The notes under the pieces are model-generated. The model saw nothing but the letters and a program-made list of their open reading frames with translations. It was not told the DNA's origin and searched no databases. The translations under genes were made by a program, and so were the position numbers. A stretch of DNA of 64,000 nt. Source: Sphingomonas sp. (lineage in GTDB: Bacteria > Pseudomonadota > Alphaproteobacteria > Sphingomonadales > Sphingomonadaceae). Location of the stretch: NCBI GenBank assembly GCA_017418975.1, contig JAFOMG010000006.1, positions 372,001 through 436,000 of the forward strand. The letters are read 5' to 3'. This document shows, piece after piece, positions 18,301-50,637 of the stretch (within the stretch, counting starts at the first letter, position 1; each line of letters begins with the position of its first letter).

Positions 18301-21300
18301 TCAGGTCGAGATTGGCGCCGGTCAGGATCGATGCATTGGCATCGATGCGTCCCGTGCCGCTCTGCACGATGTCGCCGCTGCCGCGCAGGGTGACGTCATT
18401 GGCCGAGATCGTGCCCGCCGTCTGCGAGATGCCGCCGCCATTGGCCAGCAGGTTGACCGAGCGCAGCCCCACCTTGCTGGCGCTGACGTCGCCCGCGACG
18501 GTGAAGCTGCCGGCATTGGAGACGAGGACGTCGCCATAGGTGGCGACCAGCTTGCTGAAGCTGTTCACGTCGACGCTGTTGGTCAGGTCGATATGGCCGG
18601 CGGTCATCGACAGGCCGTCGACATTGATCCCGCTCGAGGCGAGATTGCCCCCGGCGGTCACCACGGCATTGCCGGTGGTGTTGAGCCCCACGACGATCCC
18701 ACCCGAACCGCCATTGTTGAGGGTGATGGTGCCGCCGCCGGTCGAGGTGCCGATGAAGTTGGTGAAGCGGTTGTCGCCGCCGAGCGTGATGTTGCTCGCC
18801 GCTGCCATGGCGCCGGTGGTGACGTTGACGGTCCCGCCGCTCTGGGCGATCGCACCGGTCGTGGCGATCAGGCTCGTCGCGATGGCCGTGAAGGTGCCGG
18901 TCAGATCGATATTGTTGTCGGCGACCAGGGTGAAGCCGCTGTTGACGCCGATGCCGTCGAGCTTGATGTCACCCGCGGCGTAGATGGTGGCGTTGATGGC
19001 AACCACGCTGAGCTTGTCCGCATCGACCTTGCCATGCGGGGTGGTCACCACGCCGACGGTGGTGGTGCCCGTGGTGATGTTGCCGGTGGTGCTGAGGAAC
19101 ACGGTGCCGGGCGCGGTGATGTCGCCTTCGATCGCCAGGCCGCCGGTATCGCGGATGCGGATGTCGCCGACATCGGTGGTGAGACCCGCCAGTGTCGTGA
19201 AGTTGTTCGAACTGCTGTTGAAGCCGATGCCGGTCGCGGCATGCGCGATGAGCGTGTTCGCGGTCAGGGCGCTGGTCTGGCTGATCGTGCCCGTGTCCGA
19301 GGTCAGGTTCAGCGTGCCGATCGCCGTGCCGTTGCTCGGCAGCAGCAGGTTGCCCTGATTCCGGATGGTAACGTCCGCGCCCACGCCATGGCCCATGTCC
19401 GTCAGCGTGCCGAAATTGTTCGCGCCGCCGATCAGCAGGCTGGTGCCCGCGCCGATCGCCAGCCGGTCGGCAGTGATCCCGCCCGCGCCCTGGGTGATCG
19501 CGCCGCCGCCGGCGTAGATCTGGACGCCGCCGCCGGAGATGTTGCCGCTCAGGCCGAGCGCGGTGGCGGTGTAGATGTTGATGTCGGTGCCGCTCGTGCT
19601 CTTGGCGGTCAGGTCGCCGAGCCCGCGGATCTTGTTGTTGCCATAGGTGAAGACGATGCTGCCGTTGGTGGCGGTGGCGGTCAGCTTGTTGGTCTCGACA
19701 TAGACGCCGGTGATATTGCCGGTGTCCGAGGTCAGCGTGAGGTTGCCGTTGTTCGCGACCTGGTTGCCCGCCCCGCCCAGGTCGAGCGTGCCGACCGTGC
19801 GCAGCGTGAAGTCGCGGCTGATCGAATAGGCGTCGAGCGCGCCGATCTCGTTCGCCCCGCCCAGCGAGACGTCGATGCCGGTGAGCGCCAGGGTGTTCGC
19901 CACCACCTTGGCACCGCTTGACTGGGTGATATTGCCCACGGCCTGGAGCTGGACATTGTCGCCGGAGATCGTGCCGCTGTTCTGCAGGATCGAGTTCTGG
20001 CTCGAATAGAGGCGGATATACTGGCCGGGGGCGTTGGCGGTGACGTTGCCGTCGAGCTTGATGTCGCCCTTGTTCTCGATGTCGATCGCACCGGCCGACG
20101 AGGTGAGATAGCGATAGCTGCCGACATTGATGGCGACGGTCTGGTCGTTCAGATAGATTCCGCCGGCCGCGTTGATACCCACCGAGCGCGCGATCACGCT
20201 GTCGTTGTTGCCGGCCGCGCCGCCGGCATCGACGGTCAGGTCGCCGGTGGTGTCGATCTTGAAGAAGATATTCGCATTGCCGGTGAGATTGATATCACCG
20301 CCATTGCTTGAGCTCGCCCAGATGATCGCGTTGCCGGTGCTATCGAGCGTGATGCTGTCACGGGCGGTGGCGGCAACCGAGTTGGCCGAGATTGAGCCGC
20401 TGGCGCCGCGCCCGATCGTGCCGAAATTCGCTTTCAGCGTCGCATCGCCGCCATTGGTGTTGAGCAGGCCGGCGACAGTCAGGTTCCCGTCGGTGTCGAT
20501 CGCGAAATTGCCGTTGGTGGTGACGGTGCCGAGCTGGATGTTGCCGCCCGCGACCAGATTGGCATTGGTCGCCGAGACGTTGAGCAGGCTGCCCGCGATG
20601 ACCAGCCCGCCATTGGTGGTGATCGCGCCGCCCGAAGTAAGCGTGAGCGCGCCGGCTGCACGGACCTGGCCGGTAAGGTCGAAGGCGTTGCTGTCGACGA
20701 TGGTGACGTTGCCACCGGTGCTGCGGATCGCGCCGAGATGATCGATGTCGTTGCCGGCCTGATCGAGCACGATGTCGCCCGCCGCGCTGGCCTTCAGCGT
20801 GCCGGCCTCGAAGAGGTTGCTGAAGCTGGTCTGGCTGATCCCGCCCGTGTCCGACGTCAGCGTGACCGTGCCGCCCGGCGCTTCGATCTGATAGTCGAGC
20901 ACGATCGCGCCGACATTGCGCAGCGTGATGTCGTGGCCGGTGCCGCTGTCGTACTGATCGGTGTCGAGCCGCCCGACCACGTCGATCTGGTTGGCCCCGG
21001 TCAACGAGATATTGCCGGTGGTGATGACGTTGAGCCGGTCGGCATCGATGATGCCGCCGGTCTGGTTGAGCCCGCTATTGCCGTAGAGGCTGACGCTCTG
21101 ACCGGTGACGTTGCCGGTCAGCACCATGTTGCCATTGTAGGTGGTCAGCAGGATGGACTGGCCTGCGGTGATGGTGCCGAGCGAGGCGATCGTGCCGGCG
21201 AGGCTTATGGAACCCGCCGCACTCGCGGTCAGGCGCGACGTGGCGATACCGGCGTTGGTGGCGAGGATGCTCCCTGTATCGGAGATCAGGGTGAGCGCGC

Positions 21301-24300
21301 CACCCGTCCGATATCCGCCGGTCCCCCCGAGGATCGGACTGAGATCGATGTTGCCGAGATTGCGCAGCGTCAGGTCGCCGCCCACCGCAAGGTCGGTGAG
21401 GGTAATGAAGTCGTTAGCCTCGCCCAGCGTCGTGGTACCGCCGCTGGTCAGCGACAGGCTGGTGGCGTGCAGCGCGGCGCCGGTGCCCTGGCTGATCGTG
21501 GTGCCGGCGGTGAGCGCCATCGTGTCGGCGGTGAGCGTCGTGCCCGCATTCTGGGTGATCGCGCCGCTGGTCGAGGTCAGCGCCAGGCTGTTGCCGGCCG
21601 CATTGATCGACTGGCTAATGTTGAAGCTGCCGGCATTGGTGAAGGCGCTCGCCCCGCCCGCGCTCAGCGTGCCGAGATTGGTGACGGCGTTGGCGCGGGT
21701 CGCGTTTACCCCGGCGGTCGCCGACAGGTTCAGCGTATCGGCGGTGATCACGCCGCCGGTCTGGTTGAGCGCGCCTAGTTCGTCGGAAATCGTCACCGTC
21801 TGGCCGGCAGCGCTGATATTGCCGGCCAGCGTGGTGCCGTAGCCACCGTTGTTGGTGGCGATGCGGATGCCGCCACTCGTCGTGTTGATGAGGGTACCGA
21901 TATTGATGATGTTGTTCGCGCCAAAGGCACCGCCCGACAGGTCGATGCCGGTGACGGCGCTCAGGTTGAGGGTGTTGTACGCATTGACATAGCTCGTTCC
22001 GCTCTGCTGGGTGATCGCCCCGCCCGAGGTCAGCGAGATCGTGTCGCCCGTGAGGCCTTGTATAATGGCGAGGTCGCCCACGGTGTTGATCGTGACGCTG
22101 GTGCTGCCCTGCGTCTGGAGCAGCTTCGCGAACTGGTTCGCGCGGGTGAAGGTGACCGTGCCGGCCTGAGCGCCGAAAGCGTCGGCGCTGATGATGCCCG
22201 CGCTCTGCGTAATCGCGCCGTTGTTGCCGGCGCGCAATATGATGGACCCGGCGCCAGCGGTGAGGTTGCCCGCGACGTCGAAGCCGTCGGCATCCTGATA
22301 CAGGGTGCTCCAGCCGAGATTGGTGATCCCGCCGATCGTCGTGACATTGTTGTTGGTGCTGCCCAGCGCGGTATAGCCAGCAGCGTTCAGAATGAGCTGG
22401 TTCGCGCGGACATAGATGCCGGCGCCGTTGTTCTGAGTGATGCCGCCGGTGTTCGAGGTCAGCGTGAGCGTGCCGCCCGTCGCGTCGATCCGGCTGTCAA
22501 GAATGATGCCGCCGTCGTTGCGGAAGGTGATGTTGTGGCCACTGGTGAACAGATTGGCGATGAGGCTGCCCACCGTGGTGACTGCATTCGCCTGGTCGAG
22601 CGTGATGTTGTTGTTGGCGGCGACGTAGAGCGTGCCGGCGGTGATCTTGGTGCCGGCGTTCTGGGTGATCCCGCCATTCATCGCGAGCAGATTCACGGTC
22701 GTGGCGGTGATGTCGCCGGTCAGGGTGAATCCGGGAACATCGGTGCCGATCTGGATGTCGCCAGCCGCCGTCAACGTGCCGAGCGAACCGATCAGATGAG
22801 AGCCCCCGCCAATCAGGATCGAGCCGTTCAGCGCCGTGGCGGTTAGCTTCGAGGTGGTGAGGATATTGCCGGCACTGATGTCGCCGGTGTCCGAGGTCAC
22901 GGTCAGCGCGCCGCCCAGGGTGGCGCCGCCGCCGGTCGTCGGATCGAGATCGATGCTGCCCAGGTTGCGCAGCGTCAGGTCGCCACCGATCGAGAGATCG
23001 GCGATGCTGGTGAAGTCATTGGCCTGCCCGAGCGTCACATTGCCGCTGCTGGTGAGCGACAGGGCGCCGCCGTGCAGCGCCGCGCCGCTGGCCTGGGTGA
23101 TCGCGGAGGCGCCATTCAGCTTGATGATGTCGCCGGTGATCGTGCCCGAATTCTGCAGGATGCTCCCGCGCGAGGTCAGGCTGACGGTATTGCCCGCGCC
23201 GCCTGCGGTGACGTCGCCGGCAAGCTTGATGTCGCCGTCGATATCGACACTGATCAGGCCGTCGTCGGTGGAGAGGTGGCTGAAGCCGCCGACATCGACC
23301 GTGAAGCCCGTGTTGATCAGGCCGATTCCGGTACCCGCGGTGATCGACACCGAATGCGCGCCCAGATCGCCGGTGTTGTACGCCTGCCCGCTCGTCTCGA
23401 CGGTGAGGGCGCCGGTGGTGGTGGCCGCGAAGCCGAGATCATTGTCGCTGCTGAGATGGATGTCGCCGCCACCCGTCGAGCTCGCCCAGAAATTGGCGAA
23501 GCCCGAACCGACGAGGGTGATCGCACCTGCGGCATAGGCATTGGTCGCCCAGGCCGAGATCGTGCCACCATTGCTGGTGATCGCGCCATTGGTGGTGGAC
23601 AGGATCAGGGTGCCAGTGCCGGTGTTGATCGCGCCGGTCAGATCGATATCGCCGTCGTTGCCCAGGTAGAAATTGTTGCCGCCAGACGTGCTCACTGCGC
23701 CGAGCTTGATGGCCCCGGCCCCGGTCAGCGATGCGCCGCCGCCGGCGGTTACCGCCAGCGTGCCGCCGAGCGAAAGCGCGCCCGAATAGGTTTCGATCGC
23801 CCCGTCGGACCGGAGGGTGATGTTGCCCGCCGCCGCGCTGATATCGCCATTGATGTCGAAGCCATCGGCTTCTCTAAGGCTGATATTGCCCGTCGCGCTC
23901 GTCAGGCCGGTGACGCTGCCGACCTTGTTCACGGCGTAAGTCGCATCGTCGAGCGTGATGTCGCCATGCGCCTGGACGTTCAGCGTGTCGGCGGTGAAGC
24001 CGTACGCGCCGACGGAACCCTCGTCCGAGATCAGCTTGAGCGCGTGGACGGGAACGAGCCACATGTCAAAATTACTAGTATCGAAGTACAGATTGCCGAC
24101 CGAGCGTATCGTGATGTCGGCGTTTGTGCCCCAGCTGAAATAGGGGAAATCGCCTAACTGGTTCGCGCCGGTTAACAGCAGGTCGGTACCGGCAATTGCC
24201 CCAAAAACACCATTGCTTGCCTGAACGCTCGCGCCGCTGTCCTGCTTGATCGCGTAGGTGGCGCGGAGTGAAATGTCAGATCCGAAGATCGTGCCGGCGG

Positions 24301-26671
24301 CCTGGGTCAGCGTGCCGTTCGGCGCGACCAGCTCCACCCGACCGACGCCCGCTCGGCCGACATCCCCGTCGACCGTGAAGTCGCCGTTGTTATAGACAGA
24401 GACGTTGGTGCCGATCAGCCGATGATAGGTGTCGACAGCGACCGTGTTGCCATTGCTGCCGATCTGGATGTCGTGAGCGGCCTCGGCGGTCAGCGAACTG
24501 GCGGTGAGGCCGGGGCCCACGACGACATCGCCACTCTCGCCATACAGGCTGACATTGCCGAGCGCGCCGTGGAGGTAGAGTTTCATCGCGTCGCCGCGAA
24601 TCCGCACATTGCTGCCGGTGCCGCTGGTGACGTCCGAAACAAGGCTCTGGTCGCCCAGATGGTTGCCCGTCTGGTTCAGGTCGATCCCGGTGACGGCGTT
24701 GAGGGTGAAGCTGGTGCCCAGGCTGATCGTGCCGCTGGTCTGCCGGATCGCGCCGCCCCGCGAAGTGAGCGACAGCGCGTTGCCCGCATGGATAACGCCG
24801 CCGAGAACGAGATTACCGTCCATTGCGAGCGTGATGTTGCCGCCCGCGCTCAGATCCCCGAACTCGGTGTAGCCGCCATCGGAGCTGAGGTTGATCGCGC
24901 CGCCCGCGGTCACGAACAGCCCGCCGGAGTTCAGTGCGTTCGTGCCCGAAGAAGTCGCATCGCCCCCGACGGTGAACCGCGCGACCGAGAAGGTGTTCAC
25001 CTTGAAGTCGAGATTGCCCGTCGCGTTGACCGTGATGCGCTCGCCATCGGCGGAATTGGCGATGAGGCTGGTGAAGCTGTTGGCCTTGGCGAGATCGATC
25101 TCACCAAGGGCGTTGGCGACCACGCTGCCGACCAGCCCGGCGCCGCCCGTCTGGCGGATCGCGCCGTTCGCGGCGTTGAGGATGACTTTATAGCCGAGGT
25201 CGTTCGCGCTGCCGCTCAGGTTCAGCGTCAGGTCGCCGGTGCTGTTGACCGTGAGATCATTGGTGATCGCATAGACATATTCGAGCGTGGCGGCGCTATC
25301 GAGGTTGTAGGCGCCGCCGCCGGACAGCATGGCGCTGCCGGCCCGGATGAGGCCGCTGCCGCTGGCCTGGCCGATGTTCAGGTTGGCGCGACCGGACGAG
25401 ACGATGTCGCCGGCGATCTCCGTGCTGCCGAGGCCGTTGTAGAAGGTGATGTCGCCGCCGGCGGTGATGCCGTTGATCTTGGCGATCTGGTTGGAGCCGC
25501 CGAACTGCATCGAACCGCCGGACCGGGCCGTGAAGGTGCCGGTGGTGATCGCGCCGATATTGCTCCAGAGCACCCCCTCGGCGGCAAGGTCGACCGTGCC
25601 CCCGGCGGCGTTCATGTTGGTGCCGACCGTGATCGAGCCGCTGGACAGCATCGAGATCGCCGGCGCGGTGAAATCCATGAAGTTGCCGCTGGCGATATCC
25701 GCGCCGCCATTGCCCGCGACGGCGGCCGCATCCGCCGCGCCGTTCACGATATTGTGCCCGGTGGTGAGGACGATCGCGCCGGTCTCGTCGAGCGCCGCGG
25801 TCGTCGCGGTCAGGTTGCCCGTGAGCAGCAGGCTCGACATGACGCCGGTCTTGGAGACGAGCGCGGCGAACACCCGGTTGCCGCTCGTGGCGCCGCCGAG
25901 CTTGAGCGCATTGGCATCGCCGGTGCCATCGGCCCCGCTGGCCACCTCGAAGCTGAGCAGGTCGAGATCGTCCGCGCCGGTCTGGCGGAAGCTGATCTGG
26001 TATTTGGCCGCCGCGCCATAGAGCACGTTGCCGCCGTCCTGCGCCGAGATGCTCGACCCCGCCTCGGTGGTGATCACCGGCGCCACCAGCGCGATCGCGC
26101 CGCCATGGCTGGTGATCTGGGCGCCGTTCTGCACGGTGATGCCGGTGCCGCTCGCCGCGCCGGTGAAGCCGAAGCTGGTCGCGGTATCGTCCAGAAAGCC
26201 GCCTGGGCTCGAATCGGTCGCGCGGTCCACCGCCGCGGTGGTGACGAGCAGGCCGCCGGTGCTGATCCGGGCATTGGCCCCGATCACCACGCCATTGGCG
26301 TTGTAGATCCAGATATTGCCGCCGGCCGCCCCGCCGGCGCCGATCGTGCCGTTGAGGTTGCCGTTGATCGTGCTCGAAGTCGCGCTGTTGACGCGGTTGA
26401 GCACGATGTCGCTGCGATTGGCGAAGACGAAATTGGCGGTGTCGCCGCTGTTTATGTCGAACCGGCTCCAGTCGATCACCGTGCGCGAGCCGTTCAGCGT
26501 CACATTGGTGGTGTTGGCGTTCGGCTGGTCGATCACGGGGGCGCCGCCATTGCCGGTCGCGCCGGTCTGGACGAGCTGCGCGTGCGCGGGCGCCGCCCAG
26601 AGCGCGGCGAGCGCGAGCGCGCCGAAGGCCGAGGTGGTGAAGAGGCGGCTGCGGCGGCGGGGGGCGGACAT
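6335..26671 (-). CDS. Giant two-partner secretion exoprotein (FHA-like adhesin, YDG/MBG repeats)
   Basis: Predicted 6778-residue secreted protein. MSAPRRR then a hydrophobic stretch ending AAPAHAQ is a signal peptide. The next 250 or so residues form the TPS (haemagglutination activity) domain that engages the outer-membrane partner. It includes DWSRFDINSGDTANF, LNRVNS and the variant NANGVVIGANARI, where the family usually has NPNG. Thousands of residues of beta-helix repeats (GNVTLTSDTGAI-type) follow. Near the C-terminus come an MBG-like unit, six YDG repeats and a final MBG domain, ending in an acidic-basic tail. No toxin or protease domain is visible. The start at 26671 is set by GAGGG, which overlaps the transporter stop and has ideal 8-base spacing; the ATG at 26677 would be only 2 bases away. 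It lies 11 bp after its transporter gene. Probably an adhesin or biofilm protein. Confidence 0.93.
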   Translation of the reverse strand: MSAPRRRSRLFTTSAFGALALAALWAAPAHAQLVQTGATGNGGAPVIDQPNANTTNVTLNGSRTVIDWSRFDINSGDTANFVFANRSDIVLNRVNSATSSTINGNLNGTIGAGGAAGGNIWIYNANGVVIGANARISTGGLLVTTAAVDRATDSSPGGFLDDTATSFGFTGAASGTGITVQNGAQITSHGGAIALVAPVITTEAGSSISAQDGGNVLYGAAAKYQISFRQTGADDLDLLSFEVASGADGTGDANALKLGGATSGNRVFAALVSKTGVMSSLLLTGNLTATTAALDETGAIVLTTGHNIVNGAADAAAVAGNGGADIASGNFMDFTAPAISMLSSGSITVGTNMNAAGGTVDLAAEGVLWSNIGAITTGTFTARSGGSMQFGGSNQIAKINGITAGGDITFYNGLGSTEIAGDIVSSGRANLNIGQASGSGLIRAGSAMLSGGGAYNLDSAATLEYVYAITNDLTVNSTGDLTLNLSGSANDLGYKVILNAANGAIRQTGGAGLVGSVVANALGEIDLAKANSFTSLIANSADGERITVNATGNLDFKVNTFSVARFTVGGDATSSGTNALNSGGLFVTAGGAINLSSDGGYTEFGDLSAGGNITLAMDGNLVLGGVIHAGNALSLTSRGGAIRQTSGTISLGTSFTLNAVTGIDLNQTGNHLGDQSLVSDVTSGTGSNVRIRGDAMKLYLHGALGNVSLYGESGDVVVGPGLTASSLTAEAAHDIQIGSNGNTVAVDTYHRLIGTNVSVYNNGDFTVDGDVGRAGVGRVELVAPNGTLTQAAGTIFGSDISLRATYAIKQDSGASVQASNGVFGAIAGTDLLLTGANQLGDFPYFSWGTNADITIRSVGNLYFDTSNFDMWLVPVHALKLISDEGSVGAYGFTADTLNVQAHGDITLDDATYAVNKVGSVTGLTSATGNISLREADGFDINGDISAAAGNITLRSDGAIETYSGALSLGGTLAVTAGGGASLTGAGAIKLGAVSTSGGNNFYLGNDGDIDLTGAINTGTGTLILSTTNGAITSNGGTISAWATNAYAAGAITLVGSGFANFWASSTGGGDIHLSSDNDLGFAATTTGALTVETSGQAYNTGDLGAHSVSITAGTGIGLINTGFTVDVGGFSHLSTDDGLISVDIDGDIKLAGDVTAGGAGNTVSLTSRGSILQNSGTITGDIIKLNGASAITQASGAALHGGALSLTSSGNVTLGQANDFTSIADLSIGGDLTLRNLGSIDLDPTTGGGATLGGALTVTSDTGDISAGNILTTSKLTATALNGSILIGGGSHLIGSLGTLTAAGDIQIGTDVPGFTLTGDITATTVNLLAMNGGITQNAGTKITAGTLYVAANNNITLDQANAVTTVGSLIANLFTSGHNITFRNDGGIILDSRIDATGGTLTLTSNTGGITQNNGAGIYVRANQLILNAAGYTALGSTNNNVTTIGGITNLGWSTLYQDADGFDVAGNLTAGAGSIILRAGNNGAITQSAGIISADAFGAQAGTVTFTRANQFAKLLQTQGSTSVTINTVGDLAIIQGLTGDTISLTSGGAITQQSGTSYVNAYNTLNLSAVTGIDLSGGAFGANNIINIGTLINTTSGGIRIATNNGGYGTTLAGNISAAGQTVTISDELGALNQTGGVITADTLNLSATAGVNATRANAVTNLGTLSAGGASAFTNAGSFNISQSINAAGNSLALTSTSGAITQNAGTTLTADTMALTAGTTISQGTGAALHATSLSLTSGGTTTLGEANDFITLTDLAVGGDLTLRNLGNIDLSPILGGTGGYRTGGALTLISDTGSILATNAGIATSRLTASAAGSISLAGTIASLGTITAGQSILLTTYNGNMVLTGNVTGQSVSLYGNSGLNQTGGIIDADRLNVITTGNISLTGANQIDVVGRLDTDQYDSGTGHDITLRNVGAIVLDYQIEAPGGTVTLTSDTGGISQTSFSNLFEAGTLKASAAGDIVLDQAGNDIDHLGAIRSTGGNVTIVDSNAFDLTGQVRAAGALTLTSGGAITTNGGLVIAGSLLNVSATNANLVAGGNIQLGTVTTNGNFAIDTDGNLTVAGLLNTNGGDATLKANFGTIGRGASGSISANSVAATARDSITLDSTGNAIIWASSSNGGDINLTGNANIFFKIDTTGDLTVDAGGAAGNNDSVIARSVGINAAGGIYLNDQTVAINVGSYRYLTSSAGAIDIENKGDIKLDGNVTANAPGQYIRLYSSQNSILQNSGTISGDNVQLQAVGNITQSSGAKVVANTLALTGIDVSLGGANEIGALDAYSISRDFTLRTVGTLDLGGAGNQVANNGNLTLTSDTGNITGVYVETNKLTATATNGSIVFTYGNNKIRGLGDLTAKSTSGTDINIYTATALGLSGNISGGGVQIYAGGGAITQGAGGITADRLAIGAGTSLLIGGANNFGTLTDMGHGVGADVTIRNQGNLLLPSNGTAIGTLNLTSDTGTISQTSALTANTLIAHAATGIGFNSSSNNFTTLAGLTTDVGDIRIRDTGGLAIEGDITAPGTVFLSTTGNITTGTTTVGVVTTPHGKVDADKLSVVAINATIYAAGDIKLDGIGVNSGFTLVADNNIDLTGTFTAIATSLIATTGAIAQSGGTVNVTTGAMAAASNITLGGDNRFTNFIGTSTGGGTITLNNGGSGGIVVGLNTTGNAVVTAGGNLASSGINVDGLSMTAGHIDLTNSVDVNSFSKLVATYGDVLVSNAGSFTVAGDVSASKVGLRSVNLLANGGGISQTAGTISANDVTLRGSGDIVQSGTGRIDANASILTGANLDLMGSNSFGAATPTVVRAGGTVRLNGDALYLQFMNPAGDVTLSAAGDITVNNFGLQASSLTANAGGQLSATSSSNQVATVHGLSGTSIDFASTGFTLDGNVTATNGATLTATSGGIAQTAGTISAASATLSAAGGSVVQSGNAKIVAPSLSVTAGGDLILGGANDFTGASSSFAYGDGSNVTLRNLGSIDFAGIPGYAINALSLTSDTGAISQGGPIAANSLFAKAATGIAFGHAGNAIGTIAGLTNSTSGGILFSTFTNLDLAGNISAAGQEVLLVSIGHAMTQSGGGIVAGTLRATASTGLSLTSATNNVANIAGLTNAASGGIAYTDADSFDITGDINALNGQSLSLTTIAANANVRQNGGLITSGAINLSGGQSFSLRGSGGIWNSIAGVGNVNTAAQIYTSGNVALTGTISSPYFELWSQGGNITQSAGQILYAPGNFLDLRASGISLTSATNQLGSVDALIAYNGGGITVVSDGNTRFGAVEGGTASLTVTNGSIGNLGDYVNVDTLNAAASGTINLGGRIGTLGNVTAGGDASFRSSSSLSVNGTINLGTGRLSLGTGGTLSQLGGAITAGGLDVTAAGAITMNANNDVGTIYGLATQNGGISYSSNSGFALGGDITAGGGNAVSLNANLGSINQNAGIITAARLDASAGNQIVLTRANQVGQLGDLTAGNAVSFTVRDDLTLLGTISGSSVTLSSTDGAISQAGGAIITASLSAYASTGLDLFRANNVTALGGLSTTSGNLRFRNSGDIALTNMTVGGNLTLVSDSGAIRQNVGTILTVGDTATLTADGGIRLDGNANAVTRFGAVRNLGSSGDITLANAGDLILTDDVGAFGQQLALYSNSGAILQQGGTLTGDNLIAHADGAITLGAANNTNPFGSIELVSTTGDIRFRSANSIRLGTVSTPGLLSLTSDTGGINQIAAISAGALTVTSLGGDILLGQANAIGTVNDVTTNGRFTLNASGNLTLDGEISAPGLVRLIAAGNLTQTGTGVIRSSELQATSGTGATNGISLLNRNDVALATLNSNGKDLRFRNTGDFALGNISAAGHIVEMISDGGAVTQQAGTSIVAGIFSATGTNVVLDNSGNQISRIGLISTGSNLNLRNGTALQIDAIDAGSHNVTINNGDNLTGGNITAGTLTLNLAGGYVDLTTANHVASLGGFSGGQLSFTNAGSFTISGAIQNGMYQSFLTSQSGSISMAGGAVNSGGITAQAATGISLTGNMSYVYGATATTGDVSILSTLLDIQGDISGDTVTLGGTANGGYVRQTSGSITANKLIATGYAFVDLNGATNHIASLGALSSPNGYVKIASLDAVTLTADVDADDTFTLNAGGAVRQTGGRINTGWLRVSAAGDIDLGAANQIDAGSDVILAGDDVTFVNTGTFTIAGITAANGGAIDVRSINGNIWQSGAMTGGSITASAHGSLSLDKANAIGTVGALSAGTELTYNGAAAYDLTGAITAGTSVTLNGAAGINQTGGTITGQTLSVDADSADLQQANVVGRLGTVTTSGDFLFRNVGDVALWGTVHAGSTLGLYSDTGSVTNPGGLFTANILDVTAAGSVELLGGSFNYIDSLTSQNGDITLTTSSNIFNAGRIAAGNGTVDLTVGRITANSVKANLLNIDATGGDIELTGDNVIAHLGNLSGVNISLAVGTTDITGWLNGTGSVAFVRSALATDFALTMASGGVITTPMISLSNTGTAGTATLNNISGAGPLELNFNFNGNATVSATGSAVTLNNATVDGNLFVRGTSVTDSGAGADISGTLGATALAGNISLLFGTDRVGQFGNLSAGSGTVSISAANVSLTGNVIAAGAFSVAATNGSVTQSAGSLISAASITGSATGDMLLGGSNTIGRINALSAGGDLTFKTSGALDIAGALTAGTSSTMTLIAGGDINVAGADPITGGTLNVSTPGHWANFYNTPMSPRTIRFSALGDVSASNFQLYNDGAIDLAGDIVVTMGAVIDATGQITQSAGALTVDLLALYGYGVAANRQNQVQRLQGAANSGTAFSFTNAQDLRLIGNLGSGDVTLNIDGNLTANAGIYASGNILITASGGYARELWGNKVTFNGGANDLSIGAITTSDDVSVTGTGNVTVGSLSLYSNNDAGGDGFKALISGSNVTLGAATGSITSANVVDYGVGATPGLVKIQATGNATLGVDAMYNTAVAISAAGDVDARSLGRLLLGTVAGANVTLVANADVQASSIATPGTYSVSGGDIGLGALTFASGNPLDVVPLDAFVTDTQGDLALPGAFGARRNLTITAAGNITGGQVDVGTGTLSITGTGIALGRASSSFGDVELNAGIGTVDIGTVYVAGDYRLSGGALLNGALAPGGARAGIWTLTSLGAVDMGGRTLEYGGDISFLVSGLLGNGTIRSLSGSVTGSAIAIQARELLGATGVDVSTTAGNFEAFHVDGGTGDARVASAGTLNLTGSIEAGGDVHLSTTGGGGITAGYASAGGNITLYAQGGDAILRQAKLTGTAGDLMVQSTTGDAILGANDYSGIGNDIYFERASGSTGTAKVLGDTGAYVNLDHSGALTQVMGASAAVNVLDGDLSIGELKAGTGNASAYLEDGALTVNMALGDRVDLKARNGDLILGGGSITANDLYLTGGNLVDTTAVSILTADRYLEVNGGEVRAASLGSGGDVVVNSFTGAITIDELNAARDASVISAGNLAINRVSLAGGGQFAGGGSATVRSLTAVDGFALVAQGNVTLGADTVAAIDVANSVVTGGTLGGCGCGTGGGTVASLGGDVTINLFGLTGVFDTIQSDGNSSVTIQSGNLGINFLQGHDVTLNAGTGTIELNLAPVVAHDYTLTAGHFAGNSFASLGTLGGSLSITDTAGDFDFGSTDFAAAGSVSIRAAQGQLHVRNVQAGNAISLAAGGDLTLAGAALTGTGANAFSLSAGGNLTFGAADAASITSGNAFSNAGTLLAGKSLDADGQLAINLYRADALGAVDGGTVEARVLTGNLAMGDINAVGAIAIAGPSGTLTLGDVTTSAGHINIAGQGDVTTGDISGRFVVNLGASTGSLRFGNLAGGDVALAVAGGITGASVSASTLGVVAVNGGVDLDQGGSGSHVASLGMVTVNNGGFKLRNLQDLGLDGVVEVHGTLDLQVAGALTQNNYYIIADRLQGGATGAALLTGGNSIAELGQFASNGLKLTSNIGLTIDGIVQGNGGAVTIASHGGMTISANGRILSSAGGDAITLASDGLFTNARGADALAASAGRWLIYTQTGGNFGHSDPNNNFGGLAGTSYYGDFYDFGAGTFATAPNAGNRFVYGYRPLLTVTPDSFHVTYNGAVPVLTATITGLVNGDSAGGAWSGAAALSGAGRNAGTYAVYAALGTLASEMNYAFAFGAGTVVVDPRVISAILTADNRVYDGTTNATGSLTLTGLVSGDQVAASGVLAFDSKNAGTRTATASGITLSGTDAANYVIASTSTTALADIIARTITATLTANGRTYDGTTSATGTLALNGLIGNDQVAASGVLAFDSKNAGTRTVTASGITLSGADAGNYVVSGSATALADILAKAITATLTANGRTYDGTTNATGSLALNGLVSGDQVSANGSYAFDNKNAGTGHTVTASGIALSGADAGNYTVGTTATALADIIARTITATLTANDRTYDGTTSATGTLGLNGVIAGDAVSVNSTGMAFDSKNAGTRTVTASGISLSGADAGNYVVAATATDLADILARAITATLTANGRVYDGTTAATGTLGLSGVVLGDQVGVTASGIAFDSKNAGNRTATASGLALNGADAANYTISGTATGTATIAQRAITATATADSRAYDGTTGTTGRIALTGVISGDTVTGTATYRFADANAGTGRAVQVSGLALTGADAGNYAVSLSGAPVIADITRRAVSVTAQDATKLFGQPDPVFGYTVSAGSLVNGDGFTGALARIAGEQVGSYAIGQGTLALSANYLLTVIPGTLVISFTQSGADASDALRMLRLGVGGGFSLNQNPSRNLEGDGEREGAGDGDK
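6705..8201 (-). repeat. Six tandem YDG-domain repeats in the exoprotein gene (about 249 bp each)
   Basis: Six consecutive units of 82-84 codons each carry R/K-x-I-T-A-T-L-T-A-(N/D)-x-R-x-YDGTT, then FDSKNAGTR and LSGADAGNY. Units 1-5 are close to each other at DNA level (for example the YDGTT-to-start-of-unit stretch recurs almost unchanged), and unit 6 is more diverged. In adhesins such repeats extend the stalk. The DNA identity makes copy number prone to change by recombination. Confidence 0.9.
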
Positions 26672-26682
26672 GAGCATATCCC

Positions 26683-28395
26683 TCAGAAGATCGAGGCGGA
26701 GAGGCTGACGAGGATGCGGTCGGCGGGCTTGGGCGCCTTGGGCGCGACCCGGTCGAACGGATGCGCCCAGGCGAGATCGAGCGAGAACCACGGGCCGATC
26801 TGCGCGCGGACGCCATAACCGGCCGATCGCAGCGTCACCTGGTCGGCGCCCGGGCCGATATTGGTGAGCCGCACCGCATCGAGGAACGCATAGGGCCGGA
26901 AGGCCGAGCGCTTGGCGAAGGCGAAGGGCGCGGTGCTGATCTCGAGGGTCGAGCCCAGCGCCCGATCGCCCGAGGCAGCCGAGGGATCATAGCCCCGGCC
27001 GATCGAGAGGTTGCCGGCGGCGAACTCCTCGTACGAGAGCAGCGGCGTGTCGGTATATTGCCAGCTGGCGGAGACGCTGGCGGTCACCGGACCGATGACG
27101 CGACCGCCGACCGAGAGATCGGCGCGGACCACCGTCGCATCCGGACGCCCGCCGAAGCGCGAGGCGACCCGGTTGCCATAGGGCGTGGCGCCGAGCCCGT
27201 TGATGCCCTTGCGCAGCTCGAGCGAGCCGGTGGCCGCCACCGAGTGCGAGGCCAGCTCGCGCGGCGCGAGATGGCCGTCGAGCCGGGCGAAGAGCACCCG
27301 CAGCTTGTCCTCGGTCAGCGTGGCGACGCCGCCGCCGAACTCGACCTTCTGGTCGATCCATTCCAGCCCGCCCGAGAGGTTCAGATTGTAGCGGCGGTGG
27401 CGCAGCAGCGGATAGGTGAGCCGGGCATTGCCGGCGAAGCTGTTGCCGAGCAGATCGAGCGGCTTGAGCGCGGCGCCTGGCCGGGTCCGCGCGAACGAGC
27501 CCGACAGGTCGACCTGAAGGCCCTCCCCGCCCAGCTTGACGCTCTCGGTCAGCTGGATGACCCGCTGCTCGGGGCTGGAGATCGTGCCATAGCCGACGAT
27601 GGTGGTGCGCTCGCCGAAGGGCGTGAAGCTGTTATAATCGACGCGCGCGGTGGCCAGGTCGCGGCCGATCGAGTCCGAACCATAGTCGTTCACCGCGAAG
27701 GTGGCGGTGACCGGCGTGCGCGAGACGGCGATGTCGAGATCGACTGCGCCGTTGCCGCCCGGCGACTGCCTGAGCGAGGCCTGGACGATCACGCCCGGAA
27801 CGTCCGAAGCGAGCAGCAGATAGCGCTGCGCCACGTTGAGATCGAAGGGGGTCATCCCCTTCAGCTTGTCGAGATAGCGCTCGACCTGGCGCTGCCCCGG
27901 GCCGACATCGCCGTGATAGCTCACCGACGCGACATGCGCCTCGGTGACCGAAAGGATCAGCTTGCCGTCGGCGATGCGCTGCTGGGGGATATCCACCGCC
28001 GCCAGCACGCCGCGGCGCAGATAGAGAGCCGCCACCCGGTCGCGGATCGTGCAGATCGTGGCGATGGGCACTTCCCTGCCGAGCAGGTCGGCATAGGCGA
28101 AGCGGAGCTTGTCCTCGCCCAGCGCGAGGGCGCCGTTGTTGCCCTGGAACGCGACGTCGGTCAGCGTGACCTTCAGGTCGCTGCCGGCGAAGGGGCATGG
28201 CCCCGCTTCCATGTCGCGGAACAGCTCGCCGCGCGGCGCGGCGGGGATCGGCGTCTGCTGGGCGGGATTGAGCTGCTGGCGGTTGGGCAGCACCTGCGCG
28301 GCCGCGGGCAAGGCCAGCGTGGTGCCCCCGAGGAGCAGGAACATGGCAAGCGTCTTCCGCCCGCTCGGGAGATGCTGCACGGCAACCTTCGGCAT
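26683..28395 (-). CDS. TPS outer-membrane transporter (FhaC/ShlB/HecB family)
   Basis: A 570-residue outer-membrane beta-barrel that exports the adjacent giant exoprotein. MPKVAVQH to LALPAAAQ is a signal peptide. A proline/glutamine linker (NRQQLNPAQQTPIPAAP) is followed by POTRA-type domains (VTLTDVAFQGN, VAALYLRRGVLAAVDIPQQ, ILSVTEAHV). A 16-strand-type barrel ends in the aromatic terminus SLSASIF, the normal signal for barrel assembly. The start at 28395 gives the signal peptide; more in-frame codons upstream run into the promoter. Its stop is 11 bp before the exoprotein start, so the two form one unit. A strong regulated promoter sits at 28477-28523. Confidence 0.93.
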   Translation of the reverse strand: MPKVAVQHLPSGRKTLAMFLLLGGTTLALPAAAQVLPNRQQLNPAQQTPIPAAPRGELFRDMEAGPCPFAGSDLKVTLTDVAFQGNNGALALGEDKLRFAYADLLGREVPIATICTIRDRVAALYLRRGVLAAVDIPQQRIADGKLILSVTEAHVASVSYHGDVGPGQRQVERYLDKLKGMTPFDLNVAQRYLLLASDVPGVIVQASLRQSPGGNGAVDLDIAVSRTPVTATFAVNDYGSDSIGRDLATARVDYNSFTPFGERTTIVGYGTISSPEQRVIQLTESVKLGGEGLQVDLSGSFARTRPGAALKPLDLLGNSFAGNARLTYPLLRHRRYNLNLSGGLEWIDQKVEFGGGVATLTEDKLRVLFARLDGHLAPRELASHSVAATGSLELRKGINGLGATPYGNRVASRFGGRPDATVVRADLSVGGRVIGPVTASVSASWQYTDTPLLSYEEFAAGNLSIGRGYDPSAASGDRALGSTLEISTAPFAFAKRSAFRPYAFLDAVRLTNIGPGADQVTLRSAGYGVRAQIGPWFSLDLAWAHPFDRVAPKAPKPADRILVSLSASIF

Positions 28396-28476: not shown

Positions 28477-28523
28477 ATCGTACCGCAGGCGGAATTTTGC
28501 GTCTGTCGCTACTAATAGTGACA
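28477..28523 (-). promoter_or_regulatory. Promoter A of the TPS operon: dyad plus TACGAT -10
   Basis: The dyad TGTCGCTACTAATAGTGACA (28504-28523) matches its own reverse complement at 16 of 20 positions. Reading the minus strand, it is followed by GACGCAAAATT and, 21 bp after the dyad, by TACGAT (28477-28482). With a start site near 28470 the dyad centres at about -43, the usual place for a LuxR/NarL-type activator overlapping a poor -35. The same arrangement, with the same 21-bp spacing, recurs at 29992-30038. The rest of the 366-bp gap (28396-28761) holds only a weak hairpin GGGAGC-gaata-GCTCCC at 28688-28704, possibly ending the upstream gene. Confidence 0.7.
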
Positions 28524-28761
28524 GGCGAATGACGTTGCGAAACCGCGGCATCGCCGCCCCATGTTCCCCCATTCGCCCCTGTCCCACACGCAAGTCACGA
28601 CAGGAAAACACCAGCTTCATCGACACAGGCCCCCAACCGCGATCGTGCGGACACGATCCGGAATGGAGGTGCCTAGGCAGGCGTACCGGGAGCGAATAGC
28701 TCCCATATGGTAGTGGTTTAGGCGCGGTTCATCTTCGCGGGGAAGCCGACCGGTGCGCGCC

Positions 28762-29925
28762 CTACCCGAGTCGGACGGTAGGCACCGACATGGCCAGGCG
28801 CACGAGATCGAGCTGGCGGTGGCAACCGGTCTTGGCCTGGATCGTCTTGAGCCGGGTGCGCGCGGTCGAGAGCTGGATGCCGAGCTTCTCCGCCGCTTCG
28901 TTCAGCGGCACGCCGGCGATCACCGCGTCGGCGAGCTTCTCTTCCGCCGGGGACAAGGCGAAGCGCCGCGCGATCCAGGCGACCGCGCCGGGCGGCGTGT
29001 CGTCCGGGTCGGATATGACCAGCAGCACCTGGCCGGGCAGGCTCGGCAGGCCGAACTCGGCCGCGGTGGCGATGGGCCAAAGCATCGCGTGCAGCGGCAC
29101 CCCGCCGCTGCGGCGCGGCAGCATCACGCCGGAAAGCTCGCCGCTCGCCTCCATCGGCGCGTCCGCGCTGGCGCGGCAGGCGGCGAAGGCCAGGTCGAGC
29201 GCGCGGCTGCACTTGTCGTCGAAGCTGCGCGGCTGGCCGAAGCGATTGAGCATGACGCCCTCGCCGCGCGCGACCAGCGCTTCGGCGCGGCGGTTCATCG
29301 TCATCACCCGGCCCTCGCGATCGAGCACGAGGGCGGCGTGCATCCAGCCGTCGAACACCGCCTGCGCGGCCATCCCCGCCATGCGCGCGTCCATCAGCGT
29401 GCGGCGCAGCTTGAACGCGCGGCCGAAATGCGGGGCGAGCAGCCGGAGCAGCTGCATCTGGTGCTCGCGCCGCGCCGTGTCGTTCCGCCGGTCGGCGAAG
29501 GAGAGCGAGGCCCAGCCGCCCGGCTCGCGCTCGAGCACCATGCCGGTGCCGTGATGGCCGATCCGGTGGACGCGCATGAAGTCGTTGTAATGCTCGGTGC
29601 GGAACAGCTCCTCCTCGCGGATGATCGCCTCGGTCCGCACCGGCTGGCCGATGCCGTTGCGCGGTACGAAATCGACATAGGGGCTGTTGGAGAAATAATG
29701 GGCTGCATAGTCGCGCATCGCGGCGTCGGAATAATTGGCCGTCACCGTCAGCGCGGCCGCAGGGAGATGGCTCTCATGGCTGAACAGCGCGACGGTGATT
29801 TCGGGGTAGATTTCCTCGACGCGATCGACCAGCCGCTGCCACAGGCACGGATCGAGCGCGGCTTCGTAGATACCGCCGACCAGCTCCGCCACCAGCAGGG
29901 GCGTCAGGGGTTCCGGGCTTGGCAT
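28762..29925 (-). CDS. LuxR-type helix-turn-helix regulator
   Basis: A 387-residue regulator with a C-terminal LuxR/GerE DNA-binding domain: FALSPAEEKLADAVIAG, then NEAAEKLGIQLSTARTRLK, then IQAKTGCHRQLDLVRLA. The roughly 310-residue N-terminal part has no receiver domain and no recognisable autoinducer domain. It contains a PAS-like stretch (AALVLDREGRVMTMNRRAEAL, about residues 200-220), so it may sense an unknown signal. ATG at 29925 begins the conserved-looking N-terminus. It precedes the TPS operon on the same strand, has its own matched promoter (29992-30038) and diverges from a two-component system. It is a candidate regulator of the exoprotein. Confidence 0.88.
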   Translation of the reverse strand: MPSPEPLTPLLVAELVGGIYEAALDPCLWQRLVDRVEEIYPEITVALFSHESHLPAAALTVTANYSDAAMRDYAAHYFSNSPYVDFVPRNGIGQPVRTEAIIREEELFRTEHYNDFMRVHRIGHHGTGMVLEREPGGWASLSFADRRNDTARREHQMQLLRLLAPHFGRAFKLRRTLMDARMAGMAAQAVFDGWMHAALVLDREGRVMTMNRRAEALVARGEGVMLNRFGQPRSFDDKCSRALDLAFAACRASADAPMEASGELSGVMLPRRSGGVPLHAMLWPIATAAEFGLPSLPGQVLLVISDPDDTPPGAVAWIARRFALSPAEEKLADAVIAGVPLNEAAEKLGIQLSTARTRLKTIQAKTGCHRQLDLVRLAMSVPTVRLG

Positions 29926-29991
29926 GACGCGACTCTCGTTTGTGCCCGACCTGGGAAATGTCACATTAACCGGGGCAGGGCTCCGGAACAA

Positions 29992-30038
29992 ATTGTAACG
30001 AGCATGAAATATTGCGTATGTCGCTATTTCTAGGGACA
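29992..30038 (-). promoter_or_regulatory. Promoter B of the LuxR-type gene: dyad plus TACAAT -10
   Basis: The dyad TGTCGCTATTTCTAGGGACA (30019-30038) has half sites TGTCGCTA and TAGGGACA. On the minus strand it is followed by TACGCAATATT and, exactly 21 bp after the dyad, by TACAAT (29992-29997). Element, flank and spacing match promoter A at 28477-28523. The predicted start near 29985 leaves a leader of about 60 nt. A second, weaker promoter match (TTGTTC-N17-TAATGT, 29963-29991) also exists. The divergent response-regulator promoter must lie in the same gap but is not clear. Confidence 0.7.
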
Positions 30039-30148
30039 AGCCCGGGGCGGTTCGAATGGTAAGAGCGCGAAAACCGGGCGCCGCCGCGCGCCCATCCGAT
30101 CGCCGCCACGGCCACGCCCCGGGAAGCGGGCCGCTCCAGGATGTCCCG

Positions 30149-30838
30149 ATGCCCGATGCCGCCTCGCCACTGCTCAAGGTCGCGCTGGTGGAGGACGATA
30201 TCGCCTTCCAGAACAGCTTCGCCGCGGCAGTGCGCAGCTCGACCGACATGCAGCTGATCGGCATGGCGCACAATGTCGCCCAGGCGCGCAGGATGCTGGC
30301 CGGCGATCCGCTCGACGTGCTGGTGGTCGATCTCGGCCTGCCCGACGGATCGGGGATCGACGTGATCCGCGCCGCCCATGCCAGCTGGCCCGACTGCGGG
30401 ATCATGGTGAGCACCACCTTCGCCGACGAGAAGCACGTGATCGCCTCGATCGAGGCGGGGGCGGCGGGCTATCTGCTGAAGGACAGCTCGGCCGAGAAGA
30501 TCGCGGACGAGATCCGCGCCCTCCACGCCGGGGGCAGCCCGATCAGCCCGCGCATCGCCCGTCAGATCCTGCTGCGCTTCCGCCCGGCCGAGCCCGTGCC
30601 CCAGATCCCCACCGCCGCCGCGCTGGCGGCGGCGACCCCGATCGCCTCCCCGCTCTCGCCGCGCGAGCGCGAGGCGCTCGAGCTTATCACCAAGGGCTTC
30701 AGCTATGACGAGATCGCCGAGCTGATGCTGGTCTCGCGCAACACGGTGATGACCTTCGTCCGGCGAATCTACCAGAAGCTCGAGGTCACCTCGAAGGCGG
30801 AAGCGATCTTCGAGGCCCGCAACCATGGTATTCTCTAG
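30149..30838 (+). CDS. NarL-family response regulator
   Basis: A 229-residue DNA-binding response regulator. The receiver domain shows the acidic pair (LVEDD, about residues 12-16), the phosphoacceptor in VLVVDLGLPDGSG (about residue 55), the conserved Ser/Thr in MVSTTFADE and the lysine in YLLKDSS. The C-terminal LuxR-type domain reads LSPREREALELITKGFSYDEI, then RNTVMTFVRRIYQKLEV. ATG at 30149 has AGGA seven bases upstream. Its end overlaps the kinase gene start by 14 bp, so the pair is co-translated. It is the best candidate for binding the dyads in the neighbouring promoters. Confidence 0.92.
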   Translation: MPDAASPLLKVALVEDDIAFQNSFAAAVRSSTDMQLIGMAHNVAQARRMLAGDPLDVLVVDLGLPDGSGIDVIRAAHASWPDCGIMVSTTFADEKHVIASIEAGAAGYLLKDSSAEKIADEIRALHAGGSPISPRIARQILLRFRPAEPVPQIPTAAALAAATPIASPLSPREREALELITKGFSYDEIAELMLVSRNTVMTFVRRIYQKLEVTSKAEAIFEARNHGIL

Positions 30839-32741
30839 GTCGCTGCGGACCTTCCTCGCCTATGCGGGACTGGCGACGCTGGTCCTCGTCGCCCTCTATC
30901 TCGGATCCCGGCCGCAGGGCATTCACCTGACCCGCGCGCAGCTGCTGGTCCAATATACCCAGGGCTATCCCCCACCGTCGCGCACCGCTGACTGGCGCGC
31001 GCTGCCGGGCCGGTGGCAGGACGTCGCCCTGCCCCATGCGCTCCGGCCGCGCATGCTGCCGGGTGCCGGCGACGCCGGGCTGCTGCCCACCCAGACGACC
31101 TGGTATCATTTCACGCTCGACTCCGCGCAGTCTGCGCCGAGCGGCGCCTATCTCTACATCCCGCGCTGGAAGACGGATGGCGAGCTGGCCATCTATGTCG
31201 ACGGGCGGCTCTTCTACCAGACGCACGCCAATCTCCAGTGGAACGGTTCGAACCGGCCGCTGTGGATACCGCTGGAAGAAGCCGCCGAAAGCGCCCCGCC
31301 CAGGGACCTGCTGATCCGCATCCGCCACGTCCGGGGCATCGGCGGCGCGCTTTCCACGCTGTGGATCGGCGACTATCGCCAGCTCGCCGCAGCTTACTAC
31401 ACCCGCGCCTTCTTCCAGGCCGAGCTGCCCTATATCAGCTCGGCGATGTTCCTGGCGACGGGCGCGTTCGCCTTTCTCGTCTGGCTGCGGTCCCGGCGCG
31501 AGACGCTCTACCTCCTCTATGCGCTGATGACCGTCGCGACGTTCCTGCGGGTGATGCACGCCTATATGGGCGCGGATCGCCTGCCCATATCGGACGCATG
31601 GTTCGGCTGGATCACGGTCAATTCGGTGGGCTGGACCGTCCTGATCGCCCATCTCTTCCTCACCGCGCTGCACCACCATCATGCGCGCTGGCTGACCGCG
31701 GCCATCACCGTCATGTGCCTGGGCTTCGGCGGAATCACCCTGCCACTGTTCGAGGGCACGGCCGACGCCACCATCGTCTCCCCGCTGATGTACATCACCA
31801 TGGTGAGCATGGGCACCTTCACCTTCATCGTGCACATCATCTGGAGCCGCCGGGCGGGCACCATGGAGGGTATCGGGCTGGCGATCTGCGGCCTGCTCTC
31901 GTTCATCCTGGGCGGGCGCGACATGCTGCTGCAGAACAACATCATCGACATCGAGAGCCTGTTCGTCTCCTTCTACGCGCAGATCGCGCTGATCATCGCC
32001 TTCTGCCAGATCATGCTGAGCCGCTATATCCGGGCAATGCACGCGGTGGCCGAATCCAACCTGGTGCTCGCCAGCCGGCTGGCCGAGCGCGAGGCCGAGC
32101 TCAACGCCAGCCACCAGAAGCTGCGCGAGATCGAGCGGCGCGAAGTGCTCTTCCAGGAACGCCAGCGCCTGATGCAGGACATGCACGACGGGCTCGGCTC
32201 CTCGCTGGTGAGCACGCTGCGCATGGTCGAGCACGGCCATATCGACGAGGCGGACATCGCCCAGCTGCTCAAGGGCTGCATCGACGACCTGAAGCTCACC
32301 ATCGATTCGATGGAGCCGGTGGAGACCGACCTGCTGCTGCTGCTCGGCACCCTGCGCTTCCGCCTGCAGCCGCGGCTCGAAGCGACGGGCATCCGCCTGC
32401 GCTGGGACGTGCGCGACGTGCCGCCGCTCGCATGGCTCGACCAGCGCCATTCGCTCCACATCCTGCGCATCCTGCAGGAGGCCTTTACCAATGTGATCAA
32501 GCATGCGGGCGCCAGCGAGATCATGGTCACCACCGGCGTGCGCGACGGCCAGGTCTGCGTGGGCGTGGAGGACAATGGCCGGGGCTTCGACGCGACCATG
32601 GCGGCGCAGGGCCGCGGCCTTGGCAACCAGGCCCGCCGCGCCGAAGTGATCGGCGGCAAGGTCGCGCTGGAGTCGACCGCCGAGGGGACCTGTTTCACCC
32701 TGTTGCTGCCGATCGAGAGCGCCCGCACCCAGCCCGCCTGA
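30825..32741 (+). CDS. Membrane sensor histidine kinase (7TM sensor, HisKA_3 type)
   Basis: A 638-residue kinase, partner of the response regulator. One N-terminal membrane helix is followed by a periplasmic jelly-roll-like domain (about residues 40-195; TWYHFTLDS to LYIPRWKTDGELAIYVDG), which resembles 7TMR-DISM sensor domains. About seven hydrophobic segments (200-400) and a coiled coil follow. The dimerisation/phosphoacceptor box is DMHDGLGSSL with His454. The ATPase domain has EAFTNVIKHAGA and VEDNGRGFD, the N and G1 boxes of the NarX/DegS class. The periplasmic domain may bind a carbohydrate-like ligand; that is inferred from the fold type only. Confidence 0.9.
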   Translation: MVFSRSLRTFLAYAGLATLVLVALYLGSRPQGIHLTRAQLLVQYTQGYPPPSRTADWRALPGRWQDVALPHALRPRMLPGAGDAGLLPTQTTWYHFTLDSAQSAPSGAYLYIPRWKTDGELAIYVDGRLFYQTHANLQWNGSNRPLWIPLEEAAESAPPRDLLIRIRHVRGIGGALSTLWIGDYRQLAAAYYTRAFFQAELPYISSAMFLATGAFAFLVWLRSRRETLYLLYALMTVATFLRVMHAYMGADRLPISDAWFGWITVNSVGWTVLIAHLFLTALHHHHARWLTAAITVMCLGFGGITLPLFEGTADATIVSPLMYITMVSMGTFTFIVHIIWSRRAGTMEGIGLAICGLLSFILGGRDMLLQNNIIDIESLFVSFYAQIALIIAFCQIMLSRYIRAMHAVAESNLVLASRLAEREAELNASHQKLREIERREVLFQERQRLMQDMHDGLGSSLVSTLRMVEHGHIDEADIAQLLKGCIDDLKLTIDSMEPVETDLLLLLGTLRFRLQPRLEATGIRLRWDVRDVPPLAWLDQRHSLHILRILQEAFTNVIKHAGASEIMVTTGVRDGQVCVGVEDNGRGFDATMAAQGRGLGNQARRAEVIGGKVALESTAEGTCFTLLLPIESARTQPA

Positions 32742-50503: not shown

Positions 50504-50603
50504 GATGCTGCTCCAATGCCGGAAGTGCCGGCCCGGATGTGCGCGCCAGCGTGAACAGCAAGGGCAGATGCCGATGTTCGAAAAGGAGTGCCAACCCTTT
50601 AAT

Positions 50604-50637
50604 TGCACAGCGGAATGCAACTTCACGCCACTGTGCA
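50604..50637. promoter_or_regulatory. Inverted repeat between glycosyltransferase and autotransporter
   Basis: Perfect 7-bp arms TGCACAG and CTGTGCA are separated by 20 bp, just downstream of the glycosyltransferase stop and about 100 bp upstream of the autotransporter start. It could be an operator or a weak 3' hairpin. The 138-bp gap otherwise shows no clear promoter. Confidence 0.35.

Follow-up and report, generated by a model that had tools for sequence, protein, structure and literature searches.

A predicted operator shared by a LuxR-type regulator gene and a giant two-partner secretion operon in Sphingomonas sp.

Which regulator controls a giant exoprotein, and through which sites, is the question raised by a 64,000-nucleotide stretch of Sphingomonas sp. 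DNA (contig JAFOMG010000006.1, positions 372,001 to 436,000; called the window below, with positions counted from its first letter). It carries a two-partner secretion (TPS) operon with a giant tpsA, a gene for a LuxR-type regulator and a divergent operon coding for a NarL-type response regulator and a sensor kinase. The tpsB gene and the LuxR-type gene, both on the minus strand, are each preceded by one copy of a 20-bp dyad, TGTCNCTA-N4-TAGNGACA. We consider it rather likely, from sequence comparisons, that the LuxR-type protein binds both dyads and acts as class II activator of its own gene, of the TPS operon and of the response-regulator/kinase operon. The elements concerned are the following.

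28477..28482, minus strand: TACGAT, predicted TPS-operon -10 hexamer, at a distance of 21 bp from dyad B
28500..28503, minus strand: GACG flank, from dyad B toward the TPS-side -10 hexamer
28504..28523: dyad B, with the motif of dyad A, lying before tpsB; predicted TPS operator
29992..29997, minus strand: TACAAT, the -10 hexamer predicted for the LuxR-type gene, with 21 bp between it and dyad A
30015..30018, minus strand: TACG flank, from dyad A toward the LuxR-side -10 hexamer
30019..30038: dyad A, in the region that separates the LuxR-type gene from the divergently read response-regulator gene; predicted to be an operator common to both
30060..30065, plus strand: weak -10 hexamer TAAGAG, with TGG before it, predicted for the response-regulator/kinase operon; 21 bp separate it from the dyad A edge opposite the LuxR side

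The letters are TGTCGCTACTAATAGTGACA at 28504-28523 and TGTCGCTATTTCTAGGGACA at 30019-30038, and the dyads continue on the minus strand with GACGCAAAATT and TACGCAATATT, respectively. When the sequence was re-read, the dyad positions, the common flank (G/T)ACGCAA(A/T)ATT and the hexamer TACRAT after exactly 21 bp were all found as an earlier note on this DNA had given them. With the predicted -10 hexamer set at -12 to -7, the dyad is centred at -43.5 and spans -53 to -34. Upstream of the -10-like hexamers, at 17 bp, the letters are CATACG and CAGACG, in which no -35 box is recognisable. The earlier note had proposed common control of two units; this is supported as far as those two go, but the units are probably three, as a mirrored -10-like hexamer, absent from that note, faces the response-regulator/kinase operon.

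In the proposed mechanism, a dimer of the LuxR-type protein would occupy the dyad with one monomer per TGTCNCTA half-site and, at about -43.5, would stand in for the -35 box. A signal may be taken in by the N-terminal and PAS domains of the protein, which would activate its own gene and the TPS operon and, via the other side of dyad A, the response-regulator/kinase operon, whose promoter is probably located there. The circuit would consist of one LuxR-type activator, two operators and three promoters, and its outcome would be a positive-feedback loop raising the regulator, the sensor system and the giant exoprotein together. Dyad A might then be a mirror-image operator, one dyad serving two divergent promoters at 21 bp, with the regulator driving itself and the two-component system, the twin site driving the TPS operon and the whole switch travelling with its own regulator gene; we give this slightly less than an even chance.

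The motif is rare. Exact matches to TGTCNCTANNNNTAGNGACA in the window are limited to the two dyads, and 4 matches were obtained with up to 3 mismatches, versus a mean of 0.52 in shuffled sequences, 1 of 100 shuffles reaching 4. A scan of the whole genome (4,694,557 bases), as suggested in the earlier note, confined the exact motif to these two sites, both at predicted promoters of the locus. Allowing 2 mismatches added one place (C29:91029), and a reversed control pattern gave 6 at this level, so that loose matches carry no weight; the reversed control also gave one exact match each in the genomes G419 and G571. Off-locus places with at most 1 mismatch amounted to 2 in 12 genomes (G547 and G551), which equals the reversed control, and no third regulon member is therefore claimed.

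Some near-dyads can be mentioned as side observations. Those at G000:C29:91029-91048 (2 mismatches) and G547:C86:14096-14115 (1 mismatch) lie ~20 bp before the starts of genes that are homologous to each other and whose product, named by eye, resembles an outer-membrane protein. Another, at G551:C6:340971 (L055:2072-2091, in the genome of L015), has one mismatch and TATGCT 21 bp away and is located between a sigma-factor-like gene, also named by eye, and a gene of no assigned function, the number of such places being at chance level.

Orthologous loci were taken from one scan with one genome per species. The 12 loci comprise 10 labelled Sphingomonas, with S. leidyi DSM 4733 (L006) among them, a Sphingopyxis metagenome-assembled genome (L014) and Caulobacter sp. 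AP07 (L013). The LuxR-type protein is identical in L004 and 61-98% identical in the other 11 loci. The dyad before its gene is exact in 12/12 loci, that before tpsB is exact in 10/12, with one mismatch in Sphingopyxis and no such dyad in Caulobacter, and a response-regulator ortholog is found in 11/12. When the region between the LuxR-type and response-regulator genes was aligned (12 rows), 15 of the 20 dyad columns were invariant versus 31 of 216 elsewhere, and the corresponding numbers upstream of tpsB (11 rows) were 16 of 20 and 27 of 188; the rows are related, and Fisher values for column invariance therefore overstate the difference. The half-site TAGCGACA is kept toward the LuxR-type gene in 12/12 loci and toward the TPS operon in 11/11, and the flanks are TACG on the LuxR side in 10/12 loci and GACG on the TPS side in all 11 loci with a TPS-side dyad. 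Of the three directions, those of LuxR and TPS seem stronger than that of the response regulator, because the TAGCGACA half and these flanks are kept, whereas the dyad half facing the response regulator is more variable.

The -10-like hexamers were scored at 55 offsets from the dyad in 9 of the 12 loci (the near-duplicates L005 and L006 and Caulobacter were omitted), using an E. coli-type matrix. Offset 21 ranked first of 55 on each of the three sides facing a gene start, with mean scores of 8.26 (LuxR side), 5.52 (TPS side) and 2.09 (response-regulator side), and ranked 53 of 55 on the fourth side, which faces no gene start. The hexamers on the response-regulator side are TAAGAG (3 loci), TACAAG (2 loci), TAAGAA, TAAAAG, TACAAT, TAAAGG and TAGAAG, and TGG precedes them in 9/10 of these loci. 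The earlier suggestion that the sites form a small, private regulon of LuxR-like geometry thus agrees with the two exact genome sites, the conservation of the pair in relatives and the first rank of offset 21. Directly upstream of dyad B, at 28524-28550, a CCGYAACGTCRTT-like stretch is kept in the Sphingomonas rows and not in Sphingopyxis, as judged by eye; it could be a candidate site for another regulator, possibly the NarL-type one.

The dyad and the LuxR-type gene occur together. For each genome, 12 candidates were scored in the genus sample, 4 in the family sample and 9 in the Caulobacteraceae sample. In the genus sample, the LuxR-type ortholog was found in 7/151 genomes (E<=8.2e-221; the better of two weaker homologs reached 4.3e-32), and the exact dyad in the same 7, with two sites per genome; orthologs of the response regulator and of TpsB were found in the same 7 genomes as well. 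The family sample contained the ortholog and the dyad in 1/397 genomes each, both being the own genome, besides seven genomes with weaker homologs (best 2.7e-32), and shares seven genomes with the genus sample in addition to the own genome. Among 199 Caulobacteraceae genomes, the ortholog was found in 1, weaker homologs in three and the dyad in 2. In the pooled samples, the exact dyad is present in 8/8 genomes with a LuxR-type ortholog versus 1/731 without; these samples overlap the 12 loci, as five genus genomes match L006, L008, L010, L011 and L015 in contig numbers and coordinates. Counted as distinct regulator-bearing genomes (the own genome, the 12 loci and G502), 14/14 carry the regulator-side dyad, whereas on the TPS side 12 have an exact dyad, 1 has a dyad with one mismatch and 1 has none. 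All exact dyads in ortholog-bearing genomes are at this locus.

More distant homologs were inspected as well. Distant homologs of the response regulator are present in six more genus genomes (E<=1e-40), and no LuxR-type or TpsB match was found within ~3.6 kb in the loci of 5 of these 6 (39-46% identical). Other TpsB homologs (24/151 genus genomes, at most 327.6 bits) are found only in genomes without an exact dyad. Comparable dyads before distant LuxR homologs were looked for in 14 loci (L053, L054, L066-L074 and L076-L078; 26-34% identical; gene starts estimated) and were discarded, as the upstream inverted repeats, compared by eye, vary among the loci. Metagenome sources also contain a next level of LuxR-type homologs (P0051-P0070), which are 42-49% identical.

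The case that best separates the two candidate binders is Caulobacter sp. AP07, which has the LuxR-type gene with an exact dyad before it, the arms being at least 12 bp long. No response-regulator ortholog was found with the dyad there: all 94 of 94 candidates were scored without a match at E<=1e-20, in a draft genome in which a gap is possible, and the contig stretch 10000-55144 of 55144, the only part searched for the kinase, contained no match to either the response regulator or the kinase. The AP07 dyad is 80% identical to that of the own genome, versus 54% for the other intergenic positions and 56% for fourfold sites of the gene. In AP07 the TPS operon and the LuxR-type gene converge, TpsB is 63% identical and the tpsA frame has 5285 codons (L013, L057-L060); the AP07 exoprotein seems to have lost its operator. 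We tentatively read a resolvase-like remnant upstream of the AP07 tpsB. Because a perfect dyad stands before the LuxR-type gene in AP07 and the response regulator has no match there, the LuxR-type protein is favoured as the binder. The earlier note had left the choice between response regulator and LuxR protein open, and AP07 speaks for the latter and against the former.

The response regulator ranks second. It would be phosphorylated by the kinase, bind both dyads and activate the LuxR-type gene and the TPS operon in the manner of BvgA and fhaB, BvgA binding inverted heptanucleotide repeats upstream of fhaB (PMC2225982). It has a Pfam GerE domain, and its ortholog follows the dyad in 11/12 loci and in the 7 genus genomes, but it has no match in AP07, and we regard this explanation as unlikely. 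Somewhat less probable still is repression, in which the bound LuxR-type protein would damp its own gene and keep the TPS operon off until a signal arrives. The co-occurrence of dyad and regulator is the same under this explanation, and a dyad at -53 to -34 could block RNA polymerase; however, the absence of a recognisable -35 box at 17 bp calls for an activator more than for a repressor, and the 21-bp distance, constant on three sides, agrees with a contact to RNA polymerase. A third regulator, with its gene outside the locus, would have to be co-inherited with the locus, since exact dyads occur in only 1/731 ortholog-free genomes and all others are at the locus, which makes this quite improbable. 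Chance resemblance of two palindromes could draw on the stray exact dyad in the genome G715 and on the exact matches of the reversed control, but the two sites are 1.5 kb apart at one locus, are kept in relatives with footprint-like conservation and have a constant spacing. It was rejected on the rarity in the genome, the conservation in 12 loci, the column invariance and the ranking of offset 21, and its probability is close to nil.

Activation by the LuxR-type protein, the preferred explanation, also has observations weighing against it. AP07 lacks the TPS-side dyad and has no LuxR-side -10-like hexamer at offset 21; its response-regulator-side hexamer is likewise gone, as is the response regulator. 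Since Sphingomonas inherits the locus as a block, the case for the LuxR-type protein over the response regulator comes from this one draft genome. We infer the activating sign from geometry alone, and presume that the -10-like hexamers are in use as promoters. The response-regulator-side hexamer is one base off in Sphingopyxis L014 and weak (TAAGAG) in the own genome, and the structure model of the LuxR-type protein has a mean predicted local distance difference test (pLDDT) score of only 64.7. Finally, G715, from the Caulobacteraceae sample, has an exact dyad without a LuxR-type ortholog. This dyad lies 62 bp past the stop of a long open frame, and its 3-kb locus contained no LuxR-type, response-regulator or TpsB match of note by tblastn and no -10-like hexamer at offset 21; it was treated as a chance occurrence.

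The genes of the locus and their predicted products are as follows.

6335..26791, minus strand: tpsA, giant open frame of 6818 codons, overlapping tpsB; exact start not settled
26683..28395, minus strand: tpsB, ShlB/FhaC-type outer-membrane transporter (Pfam ShlB and POTRA_2)
28762..29925, minus strand: LuxR-type regulator gene, 387 amino acids, with a predicted GAF- or LasR-ligand-domain-like part, a PAS domain and a GerE-type helix-turn-helix (HTH)
30149..30838, plus strand: NarL-type response regulator (Pfam Response_reg and GerE)
30825..32741, plus strand: sensor histidine kinase (Pfam HATPase_c)

The LuxR-type protein is predicted to have a PAS domain followed by a GerE-type HTH, the latter being a tetrahelical DNA-binding domain. 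At E<=0.001 it matches no family of Pfam or of NCBIfam, and no sequence relative with a solved structure was found below E 0.1. Its N-terminal domain is poorly modelled (residues 54-124 with pLDDT <50). The best Foldseek matches of the model are VqmA and EL222 (E 2.7e-05 and 9.4e-05), with low query-normalised whole-model TM-scores of at most 0.24, except for 6ide_B (0.25). TpsB with POTRA and a ShlB barrel beside a TpsA with a haemagglutinin domain (TIGR01901, within the N-terminal 597 amino acids) identifies a two-partner (type Vb) secretion system, and the giant TpsA protein is predicted to be secreted. The NCBIfam relatives of the kinase are MctS, UhpB and NarQ, all under the cut-off.

The system joins known kinds (BvgAS/fhaB, VqmA and the lux box), as a well-supported regulon on sequence grounds. 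In V. fischeri, one lux box lies between the divergent luxR and luxI promoters. The lux box, like the dyad, is a 20-bp inverted repeat, and a GerE-type HTH belongs to both systems; the centre of the lux box lies at -42.5 (PMC3376562), versus -43.5 for the dyad as counted from the predicted -10. The dyad letters differ, and here a PAS domain is predicted and the genes alongside belong to a two-component system and a TPS operon; the autoinducer-binding domain of acyl-homoserine lactone LuxR proteins is without a Pfam match in the LuxR-type protein. VqmA (Vibrio cholerae and phage VP882) and EL222 (Erythrobacter litoralis) likewise join PAS and a GerE-type HTH in one protein, but lack the extra N-terminal domain. 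VqmA activates vqmR and attaches to palindromes in dimeric form (PMC8284805), and its operator, GG-N6-CC, has other letters. In Bordetella, a NarL-type two-component system, BvgAS, also adjoins a TPS exoprotein gene, fhaB, with inverted repeats upstream of its promoter (PMC2225982), whereas here a LuxR-type regulator stands between them and tracks the dyad, which persists without a response-regulator match in AP07. New are the operator, the protein that likely binds it, a third promoter (a probable one) and the closeness with which operator and regulator gene go together. In the open-licence literature, no paper was found on the control of the giant adhesin-like exoprotein, nor anything joining a Sphingomonas LuxR with two-partner secretion or with PAS/HTH.

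The analysis provides a likely operator and circuit for a LuxR-type regulator that is nameless in Pfam and NCBIfam and for a giant exoprotein, and a motif whose specificity (1/731 regulator-free sampled genomes) is sufficient to recognise the system in further genomes. Should the mirrored promoter be real, the locus would show, in a compact natural form, how a single operator can work in two directions and tie a one-component regulator to a two-component system. Elsewhere in the window, a second very long open frame, with no exact dyad nearby and with a minus-strand translation lacking an NCBIfam match, can be read at 42863-50626 on the minus strand (2587 codons) or at 42896-50554 on the plus strand (2552 codons).
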